From: Chloroflexota bacterium
Lineage (GTDB): Bacteria; Chloroflexota; Anaerolineae; Anaerolineales; UBA11858
Assembly: GCA_003648195.1 (NCBI GenBank)
Contig: QMOK01000004.1
Coordinates: 1 to 34,334 of the forward strand
Reading direction: 5' to 3'
DNA length: 34,334 nucleotides
How positions within the stretch are numbered: position 1 is the stretch's first letter; every line of letters begins with the position of its first letter. The position numbers and the translations under genes were made by a program. The notes beneath the pieces were generated by a model that saw only the letters and a program-made list of their open reading frames with translations, had not been told where the DNA came from and searched no databases. Positions 1-10,764 of the stretch are shown here, piece by piece.

Positions 1-375
1 AGCATCATCTTGGCTACGCACGATATGGCAGAAGCCGAAGAGATGTCTGATCGGGTGGGGATTATGCTGGGGGGAAAACTGGTCAATATCGGGACGCCGA
101 TGGAGATTACCGCAACAGGTGCGGGGCTGACAAAGGTTTCTGTACGGACGCAAAACTCATCTTTGTCGGGGACCGGCACCACGTTCACTGCCGTGAGCCA
201 GCATAAATCTACGGGCGAATATGAAATTTACTTCAGCTCGGATATCGCACCAACATTATCCGCCATTATCACCCATATCGAATCCCAGAACGATTCCCTA
301 ATCGACCTACGCGTGGAACGCCCCTCTCTGGAAGATCGCTTCCTTGAAATCACCACGACTGGAGCTATGCAATGA
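1..375 (+). CDS. ABC transporter ATP-binding protein, C-terminal part (5' truncated by window edge)
   Basis: Frame is open from base 1: SIILATHDMAEAEEMSDRVGIM, the H-loop region of ABC ATPases; overlaps the downstream permease by 4 nt. Confidence 0.85.
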   Translation, partial: SIILATHDMAEAEEMSDRVGIMLGGKLVNIGTPMEITATGAGLTKVSVRTQNSSLSGTGTTFTAVSQHKSTGEYEIYFSSDIAPTLSAIITHIESQNDSLIDLRVERPSLEDRFLEITTTGAMQ

Positions 376-1181
376 ACGCATTCATCAATCACTTTGCTTT
401 TGAATTTCGCACAGGCATCCGCAATAAACAATTGCTCCTGATGAACTACCTTTTCCCGCTGGGCTTTTACCTGATGATGGGAGTTGTGATGGCAGAAATC
501 AACCCGCCCTTCCGTGAAGACATCATCCCAGCGATGGTCACTTTTGCCGTTTTAGCCGCAACTTTGCTAGGGATACCAGACCCGCTGGTGAATGCCAGAG
601 AAAACGGGGTTTTTCGCAGCTATAAGATTAACGGCATCCCCTCGATTTCGATTTTGATTATTCCTGCGCTAACGACTATTTTGCATCTCAGCCTTGTGGC
701 GACGATTATCACGGTTACTGCCCCAATGCTTTTTGATGCGCCCCTGCCCCTAAACTGGCTCAACTATTTGCTGACTTTTATCGCTTTGGCGATTGCTTGC
801 GCTGGCTTGAGCGTGCTGATTGGCGTTGTCTCCCCAAGTTCGCGAATGACCGTGTTGTGGTCGCAACTTATTTTTGTCCCCTCGATGATGTTGGGCGGGC
901 TGATGGTCCCTTATGGCATATTGCCTGATGCAGCGGGAAAAGTTGCTCAGCTTTTGCCCGCCACGCAAGCGATGAATGCCTTTAATGGACTAGCGATGGG
1001 AAAAGTAGCGGATTTTTCGCCTTGGGGCTCCGTAATCGCTCTTGTTTTGAGCGGGACTCTGGCATTCGGCTTGGCATCCTACCTCTTCAATTGGGATAGC
1101 CATAACTCGGCGCGGCGCGGGCATCCAGCGTTGGCATTGCTAGCTTTGTTCCCGTATTTTATCGGAATATTCTTGCTATAG
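372..1181 (+). CDS. ABC-2 type transporter permease
   Basis: 269-aa hydrophobic protein with multiple TM segments, coupled (ATGA overlap) to the ATPase gene. Confidence 0.8.
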   Translation: MNAFINHFAFEFRTGIRNKQLLLMNYLFPLGFYLMMGVVMAEINPPFREDIIPAMVTFAVLAATLLGIPDPLVNARENGVFRSYKINGIPSISILIIPALTTILHLSLVATIITVTAPMLFDAPLPLNWLNYLLTFIALAIACAGLSVLIGVVSPSSRMTVLWSQLIFVPSMMLGGLMVPYGILPDAAGKVAQLLPATQAMNAFNGLAMGKVADFSPWGSVIALVLSGTLAFGLASYLFNWDSHNSARRGHPALALLALFPYFIGIFLL

Positions 1182-1219
1182 ATATCAATCGGCGACTGAT
1201 AATCGATTAAATACTAGCC

Positions 1220-1359
1220 GCACAACCCCGCGTTACGTCACCCGCCTTCGGCTCAGGTATGCGGCGCGATTTTTGTTGTTTTAGTTTCGGGTAAAATTGG
1301 GTTGCGGGCGTAAAGACTACGCATGCAAAATCGGCGGGCAGCTTACGCCATCGTTAGCA
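1220..1359 (+). other. attC-like recombination site 1
   Basis: R'' GCACAAC, L'' GTTACGTCACCCGCC, L' GGCGGGCAGCTTACGCC, R' GTTAGCA; internal GCGATTTT/AAAATCG pairing; shares GGTAAAATTGGGTTGCG with site 4. Confidence 0.75.
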
Positions 1360-1383
1360 GGCGGAGAAACAGGAGGAAAAAAG

Positions 1384-2319
1384 GTGATCAAAGGCGCTTT
1401 TCTTGTAGAACCCCTCACTGAAAACAAAATATCTAAGATTATTGATTTGGGAGTGAATGAGATTTCACTCAAGTGGGAATATTGCAATGAAAAACATACA
1501 GATATACTGAGAAACCAGGGCATAAAAGTATATGCCGAATTTAGTGTATTTGTACACGAAGAAATGTGGCGGAAGCACCCTGGTTCGCGACCTATTGATC
1601 GAAGCGGCCACCCAATGGAACCAGTCAATGGGTATTACGGCGTATGTCCCAATCACCCAAAAGTTCGAGAAGAAAAATTGATGACAATTGCTTCGGTCAT
1701 CGAGAACAAAAGCATTGATGGTTTGTGGCTCGATTTCATACGATATCCATGTCATTGGGAAGGAGTAAGAACACCACCAATCGCAGAGTATTGCTTCTGT
1801 CCAAACTGCCTTGAAAAATACGAGAAAGAAGTTGGCGGCACACCGGAAGGGGATAAATGGGTAACCTGGAAATGCGAACAGATTACGGGGTTTGTAAAGG
1901 AGGTTCGGAAGCGTATTGAAATTTCAGGAAAGTCAATTCAGCTGGGTATATTTGCAGTGCCGTGGTTTGATGATGAGTATGGAGGAGCAATACGGTCAAT
2001 CATAGGTCAAGATTTTAGAGCATTGTCGTCATATGTTGATGTATTTGGGGTAATGGCGTATCAGAAGTTCACTGGCCAGCCAATCAACTGGATTAGTGAT
2101 ATAGTAGAAGCAATTGATCGAACAACGGGAAAATCTGTTGTACCGCTGGTACAATCAATGGATAGACCGGAAAAAGTATCCAGCGATGAGTTTGAATACT
2201 CCATAGGAATGGCGATAAAAGGATCATCAAAGGGCATGCTCATTTTTCACTTGGAAGATTTATTGATGAATGAAGATAAATTCAAAATACTCCAGCAAGT
2301 GTTCAATTCATGCGGCTAG
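1384..2319 (+). CDS. Glycoside hydrolase-like (COG1649 / DUF4015-type TIM barrel) protein, cassette A
   Basis: GTG start at 1384 preceded by AGGAGGAAAAAAG; motifs such as IDGLWLDFIRYP and VFGVMAYQKF resemble putative glycosyl-hydrolase-like proteins. The longer ORF from 1297 would run through attC1. Confidence 0.6.
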   Translation: MIKGAFLVEPLTENKISKIIDLGVNEISLKWEYCNEKHTDILRNQGIKVYAEFSVFVHEEMWRKHPGSRPIDRSGHPMEPVNGYYGVCPNHPKVREEKLMTIASVIENKSIDGLWLDFIRYPCHWEGVRTPPIAEYCFCPNCLEKYEKEVGGTPEGDKWVTWKCEQITGFVKEVRKRIEISGKSIQLGIFAVPWFDDEYGGAIRSIIGQDFRALSSYVDVFGVMAYQKFTGQPINWISDIVEAIDRTTGKSVVPLVQSMDRPEKVSSDEFEYSIGMAIKGSSKGMLIFHLEDLLMNEDKFKILQQVFNSCG

Positions 2320-2337
2320 ATTTCAGGGCTGAACGCC

Positions 2338-2464
2338 AGCTAACCCTAAATGAAGCAAACCGGGCTGGTCGCCCGCGGGTAAGCGGCGCGAAAATGAGCA
2401 ATTCGCCTCAAGCAAATCCGCGTTTCGGCCTGCGCCGCCCGATATGCTTATTATCCTGTTAGCA
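2338..2464 (+). other. attC-like recombination site 2
   Basis: R'' AGCTAAC, L'' TGAAGCAAACCGGGC, L' GCCCGATATGCTTA, R' GTTAGCA; internal GCGGCGC/GCGCCGC. Confidence 0.78.
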
Positions 2465-2532
2465 GGCAAAAGTTGTGAGAAGAACAACTAAACAACATCA
2501 GATTTGATGTGAAAATGTTTTTTATGTGCAAT

Positions 2533-3039
2533 ATGATTACACTGCGTTGTACCAGAAAGCTCCAAAAATATTTAGGGGTTAGTTTTGTAGAGAATCCAGA
2601 TTCGCCAAAAGCGAAGTTAGGTGATTGGTACACGAATTTTATTCCAACGCTTTCAGGCGATATCATCATATTTGTGAGTGAAAAAACATTGCTAATGGTG
2701 GCTATTCCAGTTTGGGAAGCAGATAAACTTTTGCCAATGTTTGGGTTCCGAGTGGTCAATTTGTTGAAAATGATAGGGGTTGCGCAAGAAGTCATTGACA
2801 AAGAGATCAAGCATTACAGTGAGATTCAATTTGCTAAAACGGCGAGCCGAAGCATTTTAGGTACGATGAATGAAATAGCATATCATCTTCAATATAAAGC
2901 TGAATATGCAAAGAAGAAAGAAGATTTCAGCCTCTCAAATATAGAATTAGAGATGAGTAATTATTTATGGAAAAGTCTAGACTATCGATATCCGTCTGAC
3001 ATTGCAAAAGAAATTCTATATTTGAGCTATCTTCATTAG
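2533..3039 (+). CDS. Hypothetical protein, resembles DUF6933-type proteins (MITLRCTRKLQKYL...), cassette B
   Basis: Single ORF in cassette B; internal ATG at 2533 gives the familiar MI-LRCT-KL start; the longer ORF begins with GTG at 2509. Confidence 0.55.
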   Translation: MITLRCTRKLQKYLGVSFVENPDSPKAKLGDWYTNFIPTLSGDIIIFVSEKTLLMVAIPVWEADKLLPMFGFRVVNLLKMIGVAQEVIDKEIKHYSEIQFAKTASRSILGTMNEIAYHLQYKAEYAKKKEDFSLSNIELEMSNYLWKSLDYRYPSDIAKEILYLSYLH

Positions 3040-3045
3040 AATGCC

Positions 3046-3171
3046 TGCTAACCCAAATTGCAGCGGACTTGGCTACGCCAAGGTGGTAAGCGGCGCGAAA
3101 TTCTCAGTTTGGATTGGGTATACAATTCACTCGGAGCAAAAACGTCAAGCCGCTCACACAAACCGTTAGAA
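3046..3171 (+). other. attC-like recombination site 3
   Basis: R'' TGCTAAC, L'' TTGCAGCGGACTTGGC, L' GTCAAGCCGCTCACA (pairs with one unpaired A, a candidate extrahelical base), R' GTTAGAA. Confidence 0.8.
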
Positions 3172-3259
3172 ACTTGCTTTGGAAATGAGCATAGAAATTA
3201 TTTTTTAAAAAAAGTGGTATGATGATGTATGAAAATTCACAAAACAAGGTCATTGAAAA

Positions 3260-3460
3260 ATGGAAAATCAGCGAACCATAGCGAAAGTATATAAAAAAGT
3301 AAAATTCAATGAACAAGGGACAGATTATGCTTATTGGCAAACACAAAGTCCTGAAAAACGATTATTAACGTTAGAACAAATTCGTCAAGAATACAACTTG
3401 TGGAAATATGATACTCAACCCGGATTTCAAAGAGTTTTTTCAATTACTAAACGCCAATGA
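3260..3460 (+). CDS. Small protein partnered with a nucleotidyltransferase (candidate TA-type partner), cassette C
   Basis: 66 aa, QSPEKRLLTLEQIRQEYNLW...GFQRVFSITKRQ; overlaps the next ORF, a layout typical of small genes preceding MNT/AbiEii-like genes. Confidence 0.6.
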   Translation: MENQRTIAKVYKKVKFNEQGTDYAYWQTQSPEKRLLTLEQIRQEYNLWKYDTQPGFQRVFSITKRQ

Positions 3461-3848
3461 AGTACGTTATTTGATAGTTGGGGGATATGCGGTGGCGTAT
3501 CATGGTTATCCCAGATATACCAAAGATGTAGATGTTTGGATATGGATAAATCCAGAAAATGCCGAGCGAGTAGTAAGAACATTAAATGATTTTGGTTTTT
3601 CACCGCTAGGGTTAGAAGCCAATGATTTTCTAGATCCAGACACAATCATACAATTAGGTTATGCTCCAAATCGAATTGATTTAATAATGGGATTACCGGG
3701 GGTAGATTTTGAAGAGTGTTATGCGGTTAGAAATGAAGAAGAAATTGATGGAACAAAACTCAAATTTATTGATTTAGTGGGTTTGAAGAAATCCAAAAAG
3801 GCATCAGGAAGAACTCAAGATATCGCAGATATAGAGAATTTAGACTAA
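3408..3848 (+). CDS. Nucleotidyltransferase-fold protein (AbiEii/DUF6036-like), cassette C
   Basis: NEVRYLIVGGYAVAYHGYPRYTKDVDVWI: GG-A-..-R-T-D-D nucleotidyltransferase motif. Confidence 0.75.
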   Translation: MILNPDFKEFFQLLNANEVRYLIVGGYAVAYHGYPRYTKDVDVWIWINPENAERVVRTLNDFGFSPLGLEANDFLDPDTIIQLGYAPNRIDLIMGLPGVDFEECYAVRNEEEIDGTKLKFIDLVGLKKSKKASGRTQDIADIENLD

Positions 3849-3874
3849 CCAGAAATGCTCTTAGGCGAAAATGT

Positions 3875-4001
3875 TTCTAACCCCGCGTTAAGCTGACCCG
3901 ACTCGGCTTAGGGTATGTGGCGCAATTTTCGGTGTTTTAGGTTCTGGTAAAATTGGGTTGCGTTCGTGAAATCGGCGGGACAACTTACGCCATCGTTGGA
4001 G
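3875..4001 (+). other. attC-like recombination site 4 (last in array)
   Basis: R'' TTCTAAC, L'' GCGTTAAGCTGACCC, L' GGGACAACTTACGCC, R' GTTGGAG; strong similarity to site 1. Confidence 0.75.
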
Positions 4002-4053
4002 CTGCTCTCCTGTTTTCCTAATTCCACAACATTTACACCCCCCATTTTTTTAA

Positions 4054-4082
4054 TTGACAACTGATTTTCTCCCTGCTACAAT
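4054..4082 (+). promoter_or_regulatory. Sigma70-type promoter for the hdrA operon
   Basis: TTGACA (4054-4059), 17-nt spacer, TACAAT (4077-4082). Confidence 0.7.
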
Positions 4083-4092
4083 ACAACTACAT

Positions 4093-4303
4093 AAAATCAC
4101 CTTTGGAATAACCTAGCTCATAGAGCATCAAAAAACTGAACCCAAGCCTCCATCAACCAGGTTCAGAAGGCCGCAGCACTATTAAATAATCGCCGTCATC
4201 ACATAGGAGGGTATTTAATAAACCTAGGGGGTTAGACAAACTGGGTTAATCCACTACTATCACAACTGTCATCACGTTTGCCTTAAAGCAATAAGGTGAT
4301 TTT
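4093..4303 (+). ncRNA. Candidate structured leader RNA upstream of hdrA (family unidentified)
   Basis: Closing helix AAAATCACCTT (4093-4103) / AAGGTGATTTT (4293-4303), 11 bp; nested GGAATAACC (4105-4113) / GGTTAATCC (4244-4252), 8 of 9; internal hairpins CTGAACC/GGTTCAG (4136-4142/4160-4166) and ATTAAATA/TATTTAAT (4181-4188/4212-4219). Confidence 0.6.
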
Positions 4304-4365
4304 ACGCTCTACAAAACCTCTCGCTACCCATTCATTGGATACACCAAAAGGGAACAATAAAAAAG

Positions 4366-7300
4366 ATGACAATATCCACAATCAAAAACCCCCACCGCGA
4401 AAACCCAGTAGGAGCAGTAATGGTCGTTGGCGGAGGCATTGCTGGCATGCAAGCCTCCCTAGAACTAGCAGAACAAGGATTTAAGGTTTATATCATAGAG
4501 AAAAAAGCAGCCATCGGGGGACACATGGCGCAATTCGACAAAACCTATCCAACCAACGACTGCGCCATGTGCACCATCTCACCCAAACTTGTAGAAACGG
4601 GAAACCACCCCAATATTGAAATACTAACCAAAAGCGAAGTTATCGATATAGCTGGCCAGGCCGGAAATTTTCGAGCGCAAATACACCAAGAAGCCCGCTA
4701 CATAGACGTAGAAAAATGCGTAGGCTGCGGAGACTGCATTGAAGCATGCCCAGCAGTCGTTCCCAATGTCGAATTTGAAGCAGGATTAATTTCACGGCAC
4801 GCCATTTACCAACTCTACCCCCAAGCTATCCCCAACGCTTTTTCCATCACCAAACTTGGCATAGCCCCCTGCCGAGACGCCTGCCCAGCCGGACAACGCG
4901 CCCAAGGATACATAGCCCTCATAGGAGAGGGACGCTGGGATGATGCCATGCGCGTCATCAAAATGGATAACCCCTTCCCCGGCATTTGCGGACGCATCTG
5001 CAACCACCGCTGCGAAGACGCCTGCAACCGAGGTTTAGTTGACGAACCTATCAACATCCGCGCCCTAAAAAGATCCGTCACCGATAAAATTTACGCCCAA
5101 CCCCGCGAACCAGTTGAACCAGCCGAAATACTCTACCCCGACAAGCCAGTTGCCATCATCGGCGCCGGTCCCTGTGGATTAACCGCCGCCCAAGACGTTA
5201 TCCAAGCCGGATACCCCGTGACCGTCTTTGAAGCCATGCCAGTTGCCGGCGGAATGCTGCGGCTGGGCGTGCCCGAATACCGTCTCCCCACCGAAGTCAT
5301 TGAGCGTGAAGTCCAAGACATTGTCGACCTAGGAATAGACCTGCGCCTCAACCACCGCGTAGACGACCTAGACAAAATTTTCGCCGAGGGCTTCGAATCC
5401 GTATTAATTTCGGTAGGCGCTCACGAAGGCATCCGCCTGCCAATCCCAGGCGCAAAACTAGACGGCGTCATCATCAACACCCACTTCTTGCGGGATGTGC
5501 GCTTGGGACATTATGAACGAAAAGATAATCAACCCCTGAATACCCCAGATGGCGTGCCGCTCGGCCCGAAAGTGCTTGTGCTGGGAGGAGGCAACGTAGC
5601 CATTGACTGTGCCCGAAGCGCCATCCGCCTGGGATGCGAAGTGCATCTCACATGCCTAGAGAGCCGCGAAGAAATGCCCGCCCACGCCTGGGAAGTGAAC
5701 GCCGCCGAGGAAGAAGGCGTCCACCTCCACCCCGGACGCACGTTCGAGCGCATTCTCGGCGACCAAAATGGTCGTGTGCGCGGGCTGGAATGCACGAAAG
5801 TAGATTCGTTCCACTTTGACGAAAGCGGCCACCTCCACCTTGATAAAATCCCCGATTCTCAACATATTCTTGACTGTCAAACGGTAATCTTCTCTATCGG
5901 CCAACGCGCCGGTTTGGCCTTCATCCCCGAAGACGCTGGCGTGGGATTGACAGAAAAGCGCACCATCGCCGTCAACCCCAACACCTTTGCTACCAGTCGT
6001 CCCGGCGTATTCGCGGCTGGCGATAGCGTTTCGGGAACAGCTTTTGTTATTGAAGCGGTTGCCAACGGGCACAAAGCCGCTCATTCTATCACCCTCTACT
6101 TACAAGGACAACCACTAGAACCGTTCCCCGAACCGAACCTGCCGGTGGTGAATTTCACCCAGCAAGAGATTGACGAACGCATAGCAAGGGGAGAAATCAC
6201 TCTCCAGCCGCGCGTACCTATGCCAGAAGTGCCAGTTGAGAAGCGCATTGACAATTTTGTTGAGGTTGAGGGCTGTTATGATGAAGCCAGCGCCCGCGCA
6301 GAAGCCGCCCGTTGTTTGGCCTGCGGCGTCTGCTCTGAGTGTATGTCATGCGTAGAGGCTTGCCAGCGTGACGCTATCATCCACGATGATCCAGATAAGA
6401 CAATAGAACTAAATATAGGCGCGGTAGTGATGGCGCCTGGGTATCAGACATTTAACGCGAGTCTTTCTGAAGAATACGGGCTGGGACGATATCCCAACGT
6501 GGTCACCTCACTTCAGTACGAGCGGATGCTTTCCGCCAGCGGTCCTACAGGGGGACACGTGGAGCGCCCCTCAGACGATGGCAGGCCCAAACGGATTGCC
6601 TTCCTTCAATGCGTAGGCAGCCGCGACCAAAGCCACGATTATTGCTCTTCGGTGTGCTGCATGTACGCGGCCAAAGAAGCCATTATGACCTTAGAGCACG
6701 CTAAGACCGAAGCCCGCGATGGCGATGGAAATAACGATGTACATTGCCAGGTCTTTTTCATGGATACCCGCGCTTACAGCAAAAATTACGAGGAATACTA
6801 TCAGCGGGCTAGGAAAAAGTACGGGGTCGAATATACTCGCTGCCGTATCAGCGAGCTAAAACAAAATCCTCAAAACCATAATCTCCTCATCCGTTATTCA
6901 GAAAACGGGGCCGCTCCCATTGAAAAAGAATTCGATATGGTTGTACTCTCTGTGGGCATGGAGATTTCTGACTCCGTCAAGGAACTCAGCCGGCAGATGG
7001 ATATAGAACTCAACGAATATGGTTTTTGTCATACTACCCTCTTTGATCCCTTGCAAACCAGCCGCCCGGGTATTTATGTGGCCGGCCCTTTCCGAGAGCC
7101 AAAGGATATTTCTGAAAGCGTCACCGAAGCCACAGGAACAGCCGCGAAAGTAGCTGAACTTCTCGCTCCCGCTCGGAACACTCTTACTGTAAAAAAGGAG
7201 TATCCTCCAGAGATAGACGTTAGCGGCCAAGACCCTCGCATTGGAGTTTTCGTCTGCCACTGCGGCAGCAACATCGGCGGCTATTTAGATGTTCCCCTTG

Positions 7301-9138
7301 TGGCTGACTACGCGAAATCCCTCCCCAACGTAGTCCACGCTGAGGATAACCTATACACCTGCTCTCAGGACACTATCGCTCACATCACCGATCAGGTCAA
7401 AGAATTGGGGCTGACCCGCGTTGTGGTTGCTTCGTGCTCGCCAATCACGCATGAGGCTCTCTTCCAAGACGCCATCCGCCAGGGCGGGTTGAATCCCTAT
7501 CTTTTCGAGATGGCCAACATCCGCAATCAATGCTCTTGGGTACACTCCGATGACTGGGATACTGCCACAGAAAAAGCTAAATCTCTGGTGCGCATGTCGG
7601 TAGCTAAGGCCGCATATCTTGAAGCTCTTCAAATTTCTAAGATAGATGTGAACAATGCCGCCTTAATCATTGGTGGAGGAACGGCCGGGATGACCGCCGC
7701 GCTCAATTTGGCAAAGCAAGGATTCCCCGTACATTTGGTGGAACGAGAAGACGAGCTAGGCGGCAATTTGCGGCACTTGCGGTATTTCGCGAACACCTTA
7801 GGGAATGGCGCAGGAGGAAATGGTAAACAGGGGAGTAGTAAGCTGGTAAATTGGGAAACACAATCTCCCGATACACCAATTTCCCAATCTCCCAATTTCT
7901 TATCCACCACGCCCAAAGAATATTTGGCCAAGACAATAGCCAATATAGGGAGACATCCCCTTATCACCATTCACCTGAACACGGAATTGTCCGAAACAGA
8001 TGGCTTCAAAGGGAACTTCACGTCCATCCTCAACCATAATGATGAATCCATAGAAGTGCGTCACGGCGTGATTATTATTGCCACGGGCGGGGAAGAATAC
8101 AAAGGTAAGGAATACAGTTACGGCCAAGATGAACGCATTATGACGCAGCTAGAGTTCGAGCAAATGATGGCAGGAGGGCAGGAAAGCAAAAGAGCAGAGG
8201 AGCAGGAGAGCGATGGAGCAGGAGAAAACCAATCCACCAATACCCAATCTCCCAATCTACCATCTTCCGTTGTTATGATTCAATGCGTGGGGCCGGCTGA
8301 GAAATACTGCAGCCGCATTTGTTGCACTACAGCCTTAAAAAATGCTCTAAAACTAAAAGAACTGAAACCGGAAGCAGAAGTCATTATCATCTATCGTGAC
8401 ATCCGCACATACGGCTTTAGAGAACATATATACACCGAGGCAAGACGAGCCGGCGTCCGCTTTGTGCACTATGAGTTTGAGAATAAGCCCAAGGTTGAAA
8501 TTGGGGAATCGGCTACGGAGCAAATTAAAATCCGCGTTTGGGAGCCAATGCTAGGACGAGAATTAGAGTTGCGCCCAGACATTCTGGTACTATCTACGCC
8601 TGTTGTTCCCGCCAAAGGCGCATCAGAGCTAGCCAGCCGACTAAAACTCTCTTCCGACATGGAAGGCTTCTTCTTGGAAGCTCATGTCAAACTCCGTCCA
8701 GTGGATTTCGCCGCTGATGGTATCTATATGGCAGGGATGGCGCATTACCCCAAATTCTTAGACGAAACCATTGCCCAGGCGCAGGCAGCCGCTTCTCGGG
8801 CCGCTATTACCCTCTCTAAAGAGACTATGATGACCAGCGCACAGGTCGCTCACGTAGACCCCGATAAATGCGTGGGGTGCCTCACTTGTGTGCGTATTTG
8901 CCCTTATAATGTACCTAAAATCTCCAACGAATTTTCCGGTATTGGGAAAATTGGTGGAGCCGCCTATATTGAGCCAGCCGTATGTCACGGGTGCGGCTCC
9001 TGCGCCTCAGAATGTCCAGCCAAGGCCATTGAGTTGCTACACTACAAAGATATACAAACAATGGAAAAACTGAGTGCGCTGTTTGCGAATAGACCGCAGG
9101 AGCAAATTATTGAGACGATTCCAGTTATGGGAAGCTAA
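4366..9138 (+). CDS. hdrA: HdrA / GltD(NfnB)-like / HdrA multidomain fusion, FAD and Fe-S electron-transfer protein
   Basis: 1590 aa: HdrA FAD motif (VVGGGIAGMQASLELAEQGF, GGHMAQFDKTYPTNDCAMC), CVGCGDCIEACP, then GltD-like APCRDACPAGQRAQGYIALIGEGRWDDA / VAIIGAGPCGLTAAQDVIQAGYPVTVFEA, a return to HdrA, then a second HdrA (VCHCGSNIGGYLDV..., ALIIGGGTAGMTAALNLAKQGF) with a C-terminal 2x[4Fe-4S] ferredoxin domain. Confidence 0.88.
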   Translation: MTISTIKNPHRENPVGAVMVVGGGIAGMQASLELAEQGFKVYIIEKKAAIGGHMAQFDKTYPTNDCAMCTISPKLVETGNHPNIEILTKSEVIDIAGQAGNFRAQIHQEARYIDVEKCVGCGDCIEACPAVVPNVEFEAGLISRHAIYQLYPQAIPNAFSITKLGIAPCRDACPAGQRAQGYIALIGEGRWDDAMRVIKMDNPFPGICGRICNHRCEDACNRGLVDEPINIRALKRSVTDKIYAQPREPVEPAEILYPDKPVAIIGAGPCGLTAAQDVIQAGYPVTVFEAMPVAGGMLRLGVPEYRLPTEVIEREVQDIVDLGIDLRLNHRVDDLDKIFAEGFESVLISVGAHEGIRLPIPGAKLDGVIINTHFLRDVRLGHYERKDNQPLNTPDGVPLGPKVLVLGGGNVAIDCARSAIRLGCEVHLTCLESREEMPAHAWEVNAAEEEGVHLHPGRTFERILGDQNGRVRGLECTKVDSFHFDESGHLHLDKIPDSQHILDCQTVIFSIGQRAGLAFIPEDAGVGLTEKRTIAVNPNTFATSRPGVFAAGDSVSGTAFVIEAVANGHKAAHSITLYLQGQPLEPFPEPNLPVVNFTQQEIDERIARGEITLQPRVPMPEVPVEKRIDNFVEVEGCYDEASARAEAARCLACGVCSECMSCVEACQRDAIIHDDPDKTIELNIGAVVMAPGYQTFNASLSEEYGLGRYPNVVTSLQYERMLSASGPTGGHVERPSDDGRPKRIAFLQCVGSRDQSHDYCSSVCCMYAAKEAIMTLEHAKTEARDGDGNNDVHCQVFFMDTRAYSKNYEEYYQRARKKYGVEYTRCRISELKQNPQNHNLLIRYSENGAAPIEKEFDMVVLSVGMEISDSVKELSRQMDIELNEYGFCHTTLFDPLQTSRPGIYVAGPFREPKDISESVTEATGTAAKVAELLAPARNTLTVKKEYPPEIDVSGQDPRIGVFVCHCGSNIGGYLDVPLVADYAKSLPNVVHAEDNLYTCSQDTIAHITDQVKELGLTRVVVASCSPITHEALFQDAIRQGGLNPYLFEMANIRNQCSWVHSDDWDTATEKAKSLVRMSVAKAAYLEALQISKIDVNNAALIIGGGTAGMTAALNLAKQGFPVHLVEREDELGGNLRHLRYFANTLGNGAGGNGKQGSSKLVNWETQSPDTPISQSPNFLSTTPKEYLAKTIANIGRHPLITIHLNTELSETDGFKGNFTSILNHNDESIEVRHGVIIIATGGEEYKGKEYSYGQDERIMTQLEFEQMMAGGQESKRAEEQESDGAGENQSTNTQSPNLPSSVVMIQCVGPAEKYCSRICCTTALKNALKLKELKPEAEVIIIYRDIRTYGFREHIYTEARRAGVRFVHYEFENKPKVEIGESATEQIKIRVWEPMLGRELELRPDILVLSTPVVPAKGASELASRLKLSSDMEGFFLEAHVKLRPVDFAADGIYMAGMAHYPKFLDETIAQAQAAASRAAITLSKETMMTSAQVAHVDPDKCVGCLTCVRICPYNVPKISNEFSGIGKIGGAAYIEPAVCHGCGSCASECPAKAIELLHYKDIQTMEKLSALFANRPQEQIIETIPVMGS

Positions 9139-10074: not shown

Positions 10075-10764
10075 ATGATTATTGCCGAACAAAAGCCTTT
10101 AGAGGAAATTAAACACTTGCTCGGAGATGCGAAAAAAGTGTTGGTTGTGGGGTGTGGTACATGCGTAACAGTATGTTTCGCAGGCGGCGACCGTGAAGCC
10201 CAAATTATGGCCGCTTCCCTGCGGATGTCTTCCAAACTTGACGGACATCCCATGGAAGTCACCGATATTACCGTCCAACGCCAGTGTGAATGGGAATATT
10301 TGGATGAGATCGAAAACGAAATCAAGGAAGCCGATATTGTCCTATCCCTAGGCTGCGGCATTGGCGTGCAAGCCATAGCCGAACACTTTCCCGACTGCTG
10401 GGTAGTCCCCGGCTTAAACACAACATTCATGGGATTGCCGTCTGAGCAAGGCGTCTGGGAAGAGCGTTGCATGGCCTGCGGAAATTGTGTTTTGGGATTG
10501 ACTGGCGGCATCTGCCCGATTGCTCGCTGCTCCAAATCACTCCTCAATGGCCCTTGCGGCGGCTCAGAAGATGGTCACTGCGAAATTGATCCAGACGTCC
10601 CCTGCGCTTGGCAATTGATCTATGACCGGCTAGAGAGCAAAGGTAAACTTGACCTGCTCTTAGAAATAGAACCCCCTAAAGACTGGAGTACGGCCCACGA
10701 TGGCGGTCCACGCAAAATCGTGCGGGAAGACTTACGGCTAGAAATCGAAGAAGCGGAGGCATAA
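10075..10764 (+). CDS. metV: MetV-like methylenetetrahydrofolate reductase partner (zinc-finger/C-terminal domain protein)
   Basis: KVLVVGCGTCVTVCFAGGDREAQIMAASLR..., CMACGNCVLGLTGGICPIARCSKSLLNGPCGG; RBS GGAGG before ATG 10075; followed directly by metF. Confidence 0.85.
   Translation: MIIAEQKPLEEIKHLLGDAKKVLVVGCGTCVTVCFAGGDREAQIMAASLRMSSKLDGHPMEVTDITVQRQCEWEYLDEIENEIKEADIVLSLGCGIGVQAIAEHFPDCWVVPGLNTTFMGLPSEQGVWEERCMACGNCVLGLTGGICPIARCSKSLLNGPCGGSEDGHCEIDPDVPCAWQLIYDRLESKGKLDLLLEIEPPKDWSTAHDGGPRKIVREDLRLEIEEAEA

Follow-up and report, generated by a model that had tools for sequence, protein, structure and literature searches.

The Locus and Its Cassettes

The window, that is, the whole stretch of 34,334 nucleotides analysed here, belongs to a draft genome for which a contamination of 5.1% is estimated. 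Near its left end are four attC-like sites that enclose three cassettes of one or two genes, all in the same orientation (Table 1). An ABC-transporter permease gene (372-1181) precedes them, and a heterodisulfide-reductase operon follows, its hdrA gene running from 4366. A first-pass annotation, made from the letters alone, had described four palindromic attC-like spacers here, and their boxes and crossover points fall exactly where it placed them. The R' boxes of sites 1-4 read GTTAGCA, GTTAGCA, GTTAGAA and GTTGGAG, with the G at 1353, 2458, 3165 and 3995. In every site the R'' and R' boxes (RYYYAAC and GTTRRRY-like) are separated by a distance within the approximately 60-145 bp typical of attC, and the R' boxes show one or two deviations from strict GTTRRRY, which is within the known looseness of this box. 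The sites are 0.7-1.1 kb apart, well inside the limit of 4 kb that, according to PMC9668308, at least two attC sites have to respect.

Table 1. Position of the window and of the features of the cassette array, in window coordinates.
Feature	Position	Strand	Remarks
Window	1-34334		Contig C4; draft genome of 2.98 Mb, 327 contigs
attC-like site 1	1217-1361	+	R'' AAC 1224-1226; R' GTT 1353-1355
Cassette 1	1354-2458	+	Crossover to crossover; start matches R'' of site 2
Cassette 1 ORF	1384-2319	+	GTG start; about 311 aa
attC-like site 2	2335-2466	+	R'' AAC 2342-2344; R' GTT 2458-2460
Cassette 2	2459-3165	+	ORF 2509-3039
attC-like site 3	3043-3173	+	R'' AAC 3050-3052; R' GTT 3165-3167; one extra base in L''
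Cassette 3	3166-3995	+	Overlapping ORFs 3260-3460 (66 aa) and 3408-3848 (146 aa)
attC-like site 4	3872-4003	+	R'' AAC 3879-3881; R' GTT 3995-3997; distal end of the array
TTGACA-17-TACAAT	4054-4082	+	Conserved, promoter-like; upstream of the hdr operon

The product of cassette 1 is glycoside-hydrolase-like (DUF4015/GHL10, E about 5e-6, just under the gathering score). Cassette 2 encodes a DUF6933 protein (PF22016, 5e-31) that also matches PDC-S63, a phage-defence-candidate model of PADLOC (7.5e-13); no DUF6933 protein was found in nine genomes of the same genus. The 146 aa ORF of cassette 3 corresponds to a DUF6036-like nucleotidyltransferase (subthreshold match) and, judging by its arrangement with the shorter ORF, the pair may be toxin-antitoxin-like. 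The GC3 of the cassette ORFs (0.26-0.39) is lower than that of hdrA (0.54). Other arrays of the same genome encode a PemK/MazF-like protein, a GH114 protein, and HXXEE and DUF1349 proteins. A second copy of the nucleotidyltransferase gene, 58% identical, was seen beside an attC-like site on another contig (L023 (C240) 4035-4268).

Site 1, whose right half is found again on other contigs, is the attC of a cassette that starts to the left of the contig end. Directly left of it is an ABC transporter pair (window 1-1181), for which a 70-75% identical pair occurs, among the relatives searched, in G005 only, with no attC matches there. This transporter could be a large cassette, whose start would fall beyond the contig end, or the left flank of the array.

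Self-Matching Cassette Ends and Pairing of the Arms

In integrons, the substrate of the integrase IntI is attC in the form of its folded bottom strand, to which the enzyme binds and which it joins at G/TT. Since this cut falls between the G and TT of R', a cassette has at its left end the nucleotides needed to complete the R' of its own attC. The complementarity reported in the first-pass annotation between the first bases of each cassette and its own R'' was reproduced: GTTAGCAGGCG/GTTAGCTGGCG in cassette 1 (10/11), GTTAGCAGGCA/GTTAGCAGGCA in cassette 2 (11/11) and GTTAGAAACTT/GTTAGAAACAT in cassette 3 (10/11), counts that include the G:C pair. Under strict scoring, without the fixed TT/AA, the values are 7/9, 8/9 and 7/9. 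Cassettes 1 and 2 have TTAGCAGGC in common, so that the three matches are not fully independent, and the test was therefore repeated on 32 pairs of adjacent same-strand sites, collected by a covariance model (see below) from this genome and related ones. The score counts how many of the nine bases after TT of one site agree with the reverse-complemented R'' of the site that follows. Its mean over the 32 pairs was 6.59/9, against 3.82 in shuffled pairs (sd 0.25, maximum 4.97; none of 20,000 as high), while R' and R'' within one site averaged 3.59. The claim is thus upheld on the larger set: it is the cassette, and not the site, that the matching follows, and this is the signature of integrons. 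A self-pairing extended over 9-11 nt between cassette start and attC has been described before (PMC2727003).

The L'' and L' arms had also been claimed to pair. This stands for the sites of this and related genomes as a whole (9.86 with the own L' vs 6.53 permuted, sd 0.20) and for site 2 (score 12.5, rank 0), is moderate at sites 3 and 4, and fails at site 1, which does not exceed the background (6.5 vs about 6.5). The proposed check of bottom-strand folding gave a similarly divided answer. As drawn from the array, sites 1, 3 and 4 fold no better than shuffled sequences by MFE; in the reconstructed form of the excised circle, in which R' is exchanged for the start of the cassette itself, the hairpins are stable at sites 2 (z -2.6) and 3 (z -2.3), with a weak gain at site 4 (z -1.3). 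Plain MFE folding of array-state sites was set aside as uninformative.

Further Sites and Integrases

A strict generic attC scanner returned no matches and Rfam, at gathering scores, only a tRNA. The stem rule of the scanner is too rigid, and it was therefore replaced by the self-match test and by a covariance model built here from six sites of this genome. In a genome-wide search the model recovers sites 3 (E = 5.6e-9) and 2 (7.2e-4), neither of them used in training, and, with E values up to 1, 21 places on 12 contigs (six of them the training sites); a sequence search with site 1 yields 16 places on 8 contigs. The further copies of the spacer, for which a genome search had been proposed, thus exist, as about 20 attC-like sites on 12 contigs. 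A similar array occupies the left end of contig C43, the sites on C56 are flanked left and right by chromosomal genes, with no integrase, and some copies (C44, C272) are partial. On the minus strand of another contig, one attC-like site has an insert of about 150 bp inside its VTS (L021 (C264) 1480-1766).

The earlier remark that no integrase is in view is true of the window, contig C4 having no intI, but not of the genome, in which the search for intI revealed a full-length integron integrase on contig C143 (TIGR02249, 447.7 bits, cut-off 265). The gene (L026:240-1223) has no stops and adjoins rnc and smc; the alignment of its product retains the IntI-specific region and the catalytic R, H-R, H and Y residues. 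The contig breaks 240 bp upstream of intI, and the assembly gives no link between it and any contig with attC sites. Near the contig end, 117 bp upstream of intI, a GTTGGGC constitutes a candidate attI/cassette junction (L026 (C143) 111-125). The attC of the first cassette beside this intI was not found, and the R'' set of the genome contains no convincing match to the start of that cassette. Contamination as the source of C143 was considered and is unlikely: in comparison with G003, its single-copy Smc shares 56% identity and the window's HdrA 73%, the same ratio as between G003 and G008, so that C143 appears native. No Smc orthologue was obtained from G009 and G004.

Within the order, 28 of 61 genomes, this one included, encode an IntI above the cut-off, and covariance-model matches occur in 23 of the 61. 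Four relatives (G007, G016, G044 and G046) have attC sites upstream of a divergent intI; in three of these, R'' of the first attC matches a G/TT located 170-275 bp from intI (9/9 in G007, 8/9 in G016, 8/9 in G046), which is an attI-like junction. Several relatives have intI only 217-372 bp from the contig start. In a maximum-likelihood tree, the IntI of this genome groups with IntIs of Anaerolineales/Chloroflexota (98/90), in agreement with the Chloroflexota host suggested at first reading. It stands apart from the IntIs of G003, G005, G007 and G008, which belong to the same genus; two separate IntI lineages in one genus therefore suggest integrase exchange, replacement or transfer within it.

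A comparison of strains at the locus had also been proposed at the outset. By HdrA identity (87 and 82%), the relatives nearest to this genome are G009 and G004. Neither has cassettes upstream of hdrA; what precedes the gene there is a CBS-domain gene in divergent orientation, together with an hdrA-like gene or its remnant. Homology to them resumes at the promoter-like TTGACA-17-TACAAT, about 50 bp past site 4. The corresponding CBS/hdrA-like part of this genome lies on another contig (L249 (C71) 3234-7611, compared with L209 (G009:C237)), because of which the hdr region may have been rearranged and not simply interrupted.

Nature of the Array

The stretch is very probably the cassette array of a chromosomal integron, present as a CALIN on contig C4. 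The structure of the attC sites, the self-matching ends, the integrase and further sites of the genome, the arrays divergent from intI in relatives and the absence of the cassettes at this locus in the closest ones all agree with this reading, which the first-pass annotation had offered as a CALIN or the distal end of a chromosomal integron. The three cassettes would each have been inserted by IntI acting on the folded bottom strand of attC, with recombination between G and TT of R', up to an end point about 50 bp upstream of the hdr operon promoter. The IntI of C143 is the likely enzyme for this array; presumably it acts on these sites, the cassettes may still move, and the hairpins would form in the cell.

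It is possible, if somewhat doubtful, that the assembler divided one large sedentary integron, leaving its distal portion in the window and the portion next to the integrase on C143. The window begins inside the array, to the left of site 1, C143 and the contigs of several relatives break near intI, and repetitive attC and cassette DNA probably breaks assemblies. Against a single split integron, the arrays end in different chromosomal flanks (the hdr operon on C4, others on C43, and both sides on C56), which implies that at least some of them are separate from intI, and the first cassette beside intI on C143 is not convincingly fitted by any R'' of the genome. More unlikely is that the chromosomal array is an old and decayed one, made of non-recombining relics and of cassettes that have become fixed genes. 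The weak pairing of the L arms at site 1 and at many other sites of the genome would fit such decay; the low GC3 of the cassettes and the lack of DUF6933 in the genus would too, as features that fit an acquisition of any age. Against this, R'' and the cassette starts still match almost completely, the fold of site 2 is good, and no stop interrupts the full-length intI.

That the sites are only attC-like in appearance, and belong to a family of dispersed, self-spreading palindromic repeats (REP/MITE-like), is highly improbable. The VTS and right halves are indeed very similar on many contigs and the copies on C44 and C272 are partial, but self-spreading would not make the bases after one copy complementary to the left end of the next, 0.4-2.2 kb away, a match for which the permutations exclude chance. 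The sites also delimit single accessory ORFs that all run one way and, in relatives, adjoin intI.

Relation to Known Integrons

CALINs are a standard class of elements. The array resembles them and the sedentary chromosomal integrons (classes of IntegronFinder; Vibrio, Xanthomonas) in its clustered attC sites, single-gene cassettes in one orientation, chromosomal setting, attC sites similar within the genome, and integrase located elsewhere or lost. It differs from them in its Chloroflexota (Anaerolineales-like) host, in having 3-4 sites per contig over many draft contigs, and in attC sites of about 130 bp with a conserved VTS of their own. Its layout recalls the VCR of the Vibrio cholerae superintegron, with attC longer than 120 bp, a conserved VTS, extrahelical L'' bases and an unpaired central spacer; here, in comparison with VCR, the right halves are conserved and the left arms vary.

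Chloroflexi or Chloroflexota have been listed as integron hosts since 2008 (PMC2426708, PMC8618304, PMC9668308), and the integrons listed there share with this one the phylum and an integron-family IntI. The earlier statement that integrons are little described in Chloroflexota is fair, although these sources include a report of 2008 and reviews that list the phylum. In the literature searched, the phylum is for the most part only listed, and no description of Anaerolineales cassette arrays was found. The array on contig C4 is a well-supported, real new example of an element type that was already known. For one order of Chloroflexota, its study documents self-matching cassette arrays, as well as integrases in close to half of the genomes searched. 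It also supplies an IntI, attC sites and cassettes, a phage-defence candidate among them, whose exchange with Proteobacterial integrons could be tested.

Mismatched Arms

Weakly pairing L arms characterize 69% of the attC-like sites of this genome vs 21% in relatives, and for this reason many of its sites, site 1 included, may be inactive. At three of them (C43:1586 and those of C86 and C242), the pairing of L'' with the L' arm of a different site in this genome is better than in any of 500 draws made from other genomes, and GGCGGGCAGCTTACGCCATCGTT, a right half, is found repeatedly, joined to differing left arms. Right halves have seemingly been exchanged between sites, which we offer as a lead only: the arm-exchange test was one of several looked at, and concerns 16 sites at the assembly level. 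Sites a and b of C43 share identical blocks of at most 17 nt, which argues against a simple k-mer misassembly. An exchange of attC halves in this lineage, with the right core (L'-R') swapped between sites that differ in their left arms by way of homology within the VTS or beside it, is on the whole improbable; if true, cassette arrays could be reshaped by a second route in addition to IntI. An L'' poorly paired with its own L' but well paired with those of other sites of the genome, with the extra-base pattern, is seen at L019 (C43) 561-3283, L022 (C86) 10463-10594, L229 (C98) 66-198 and L230 (C242) 3259-3387.
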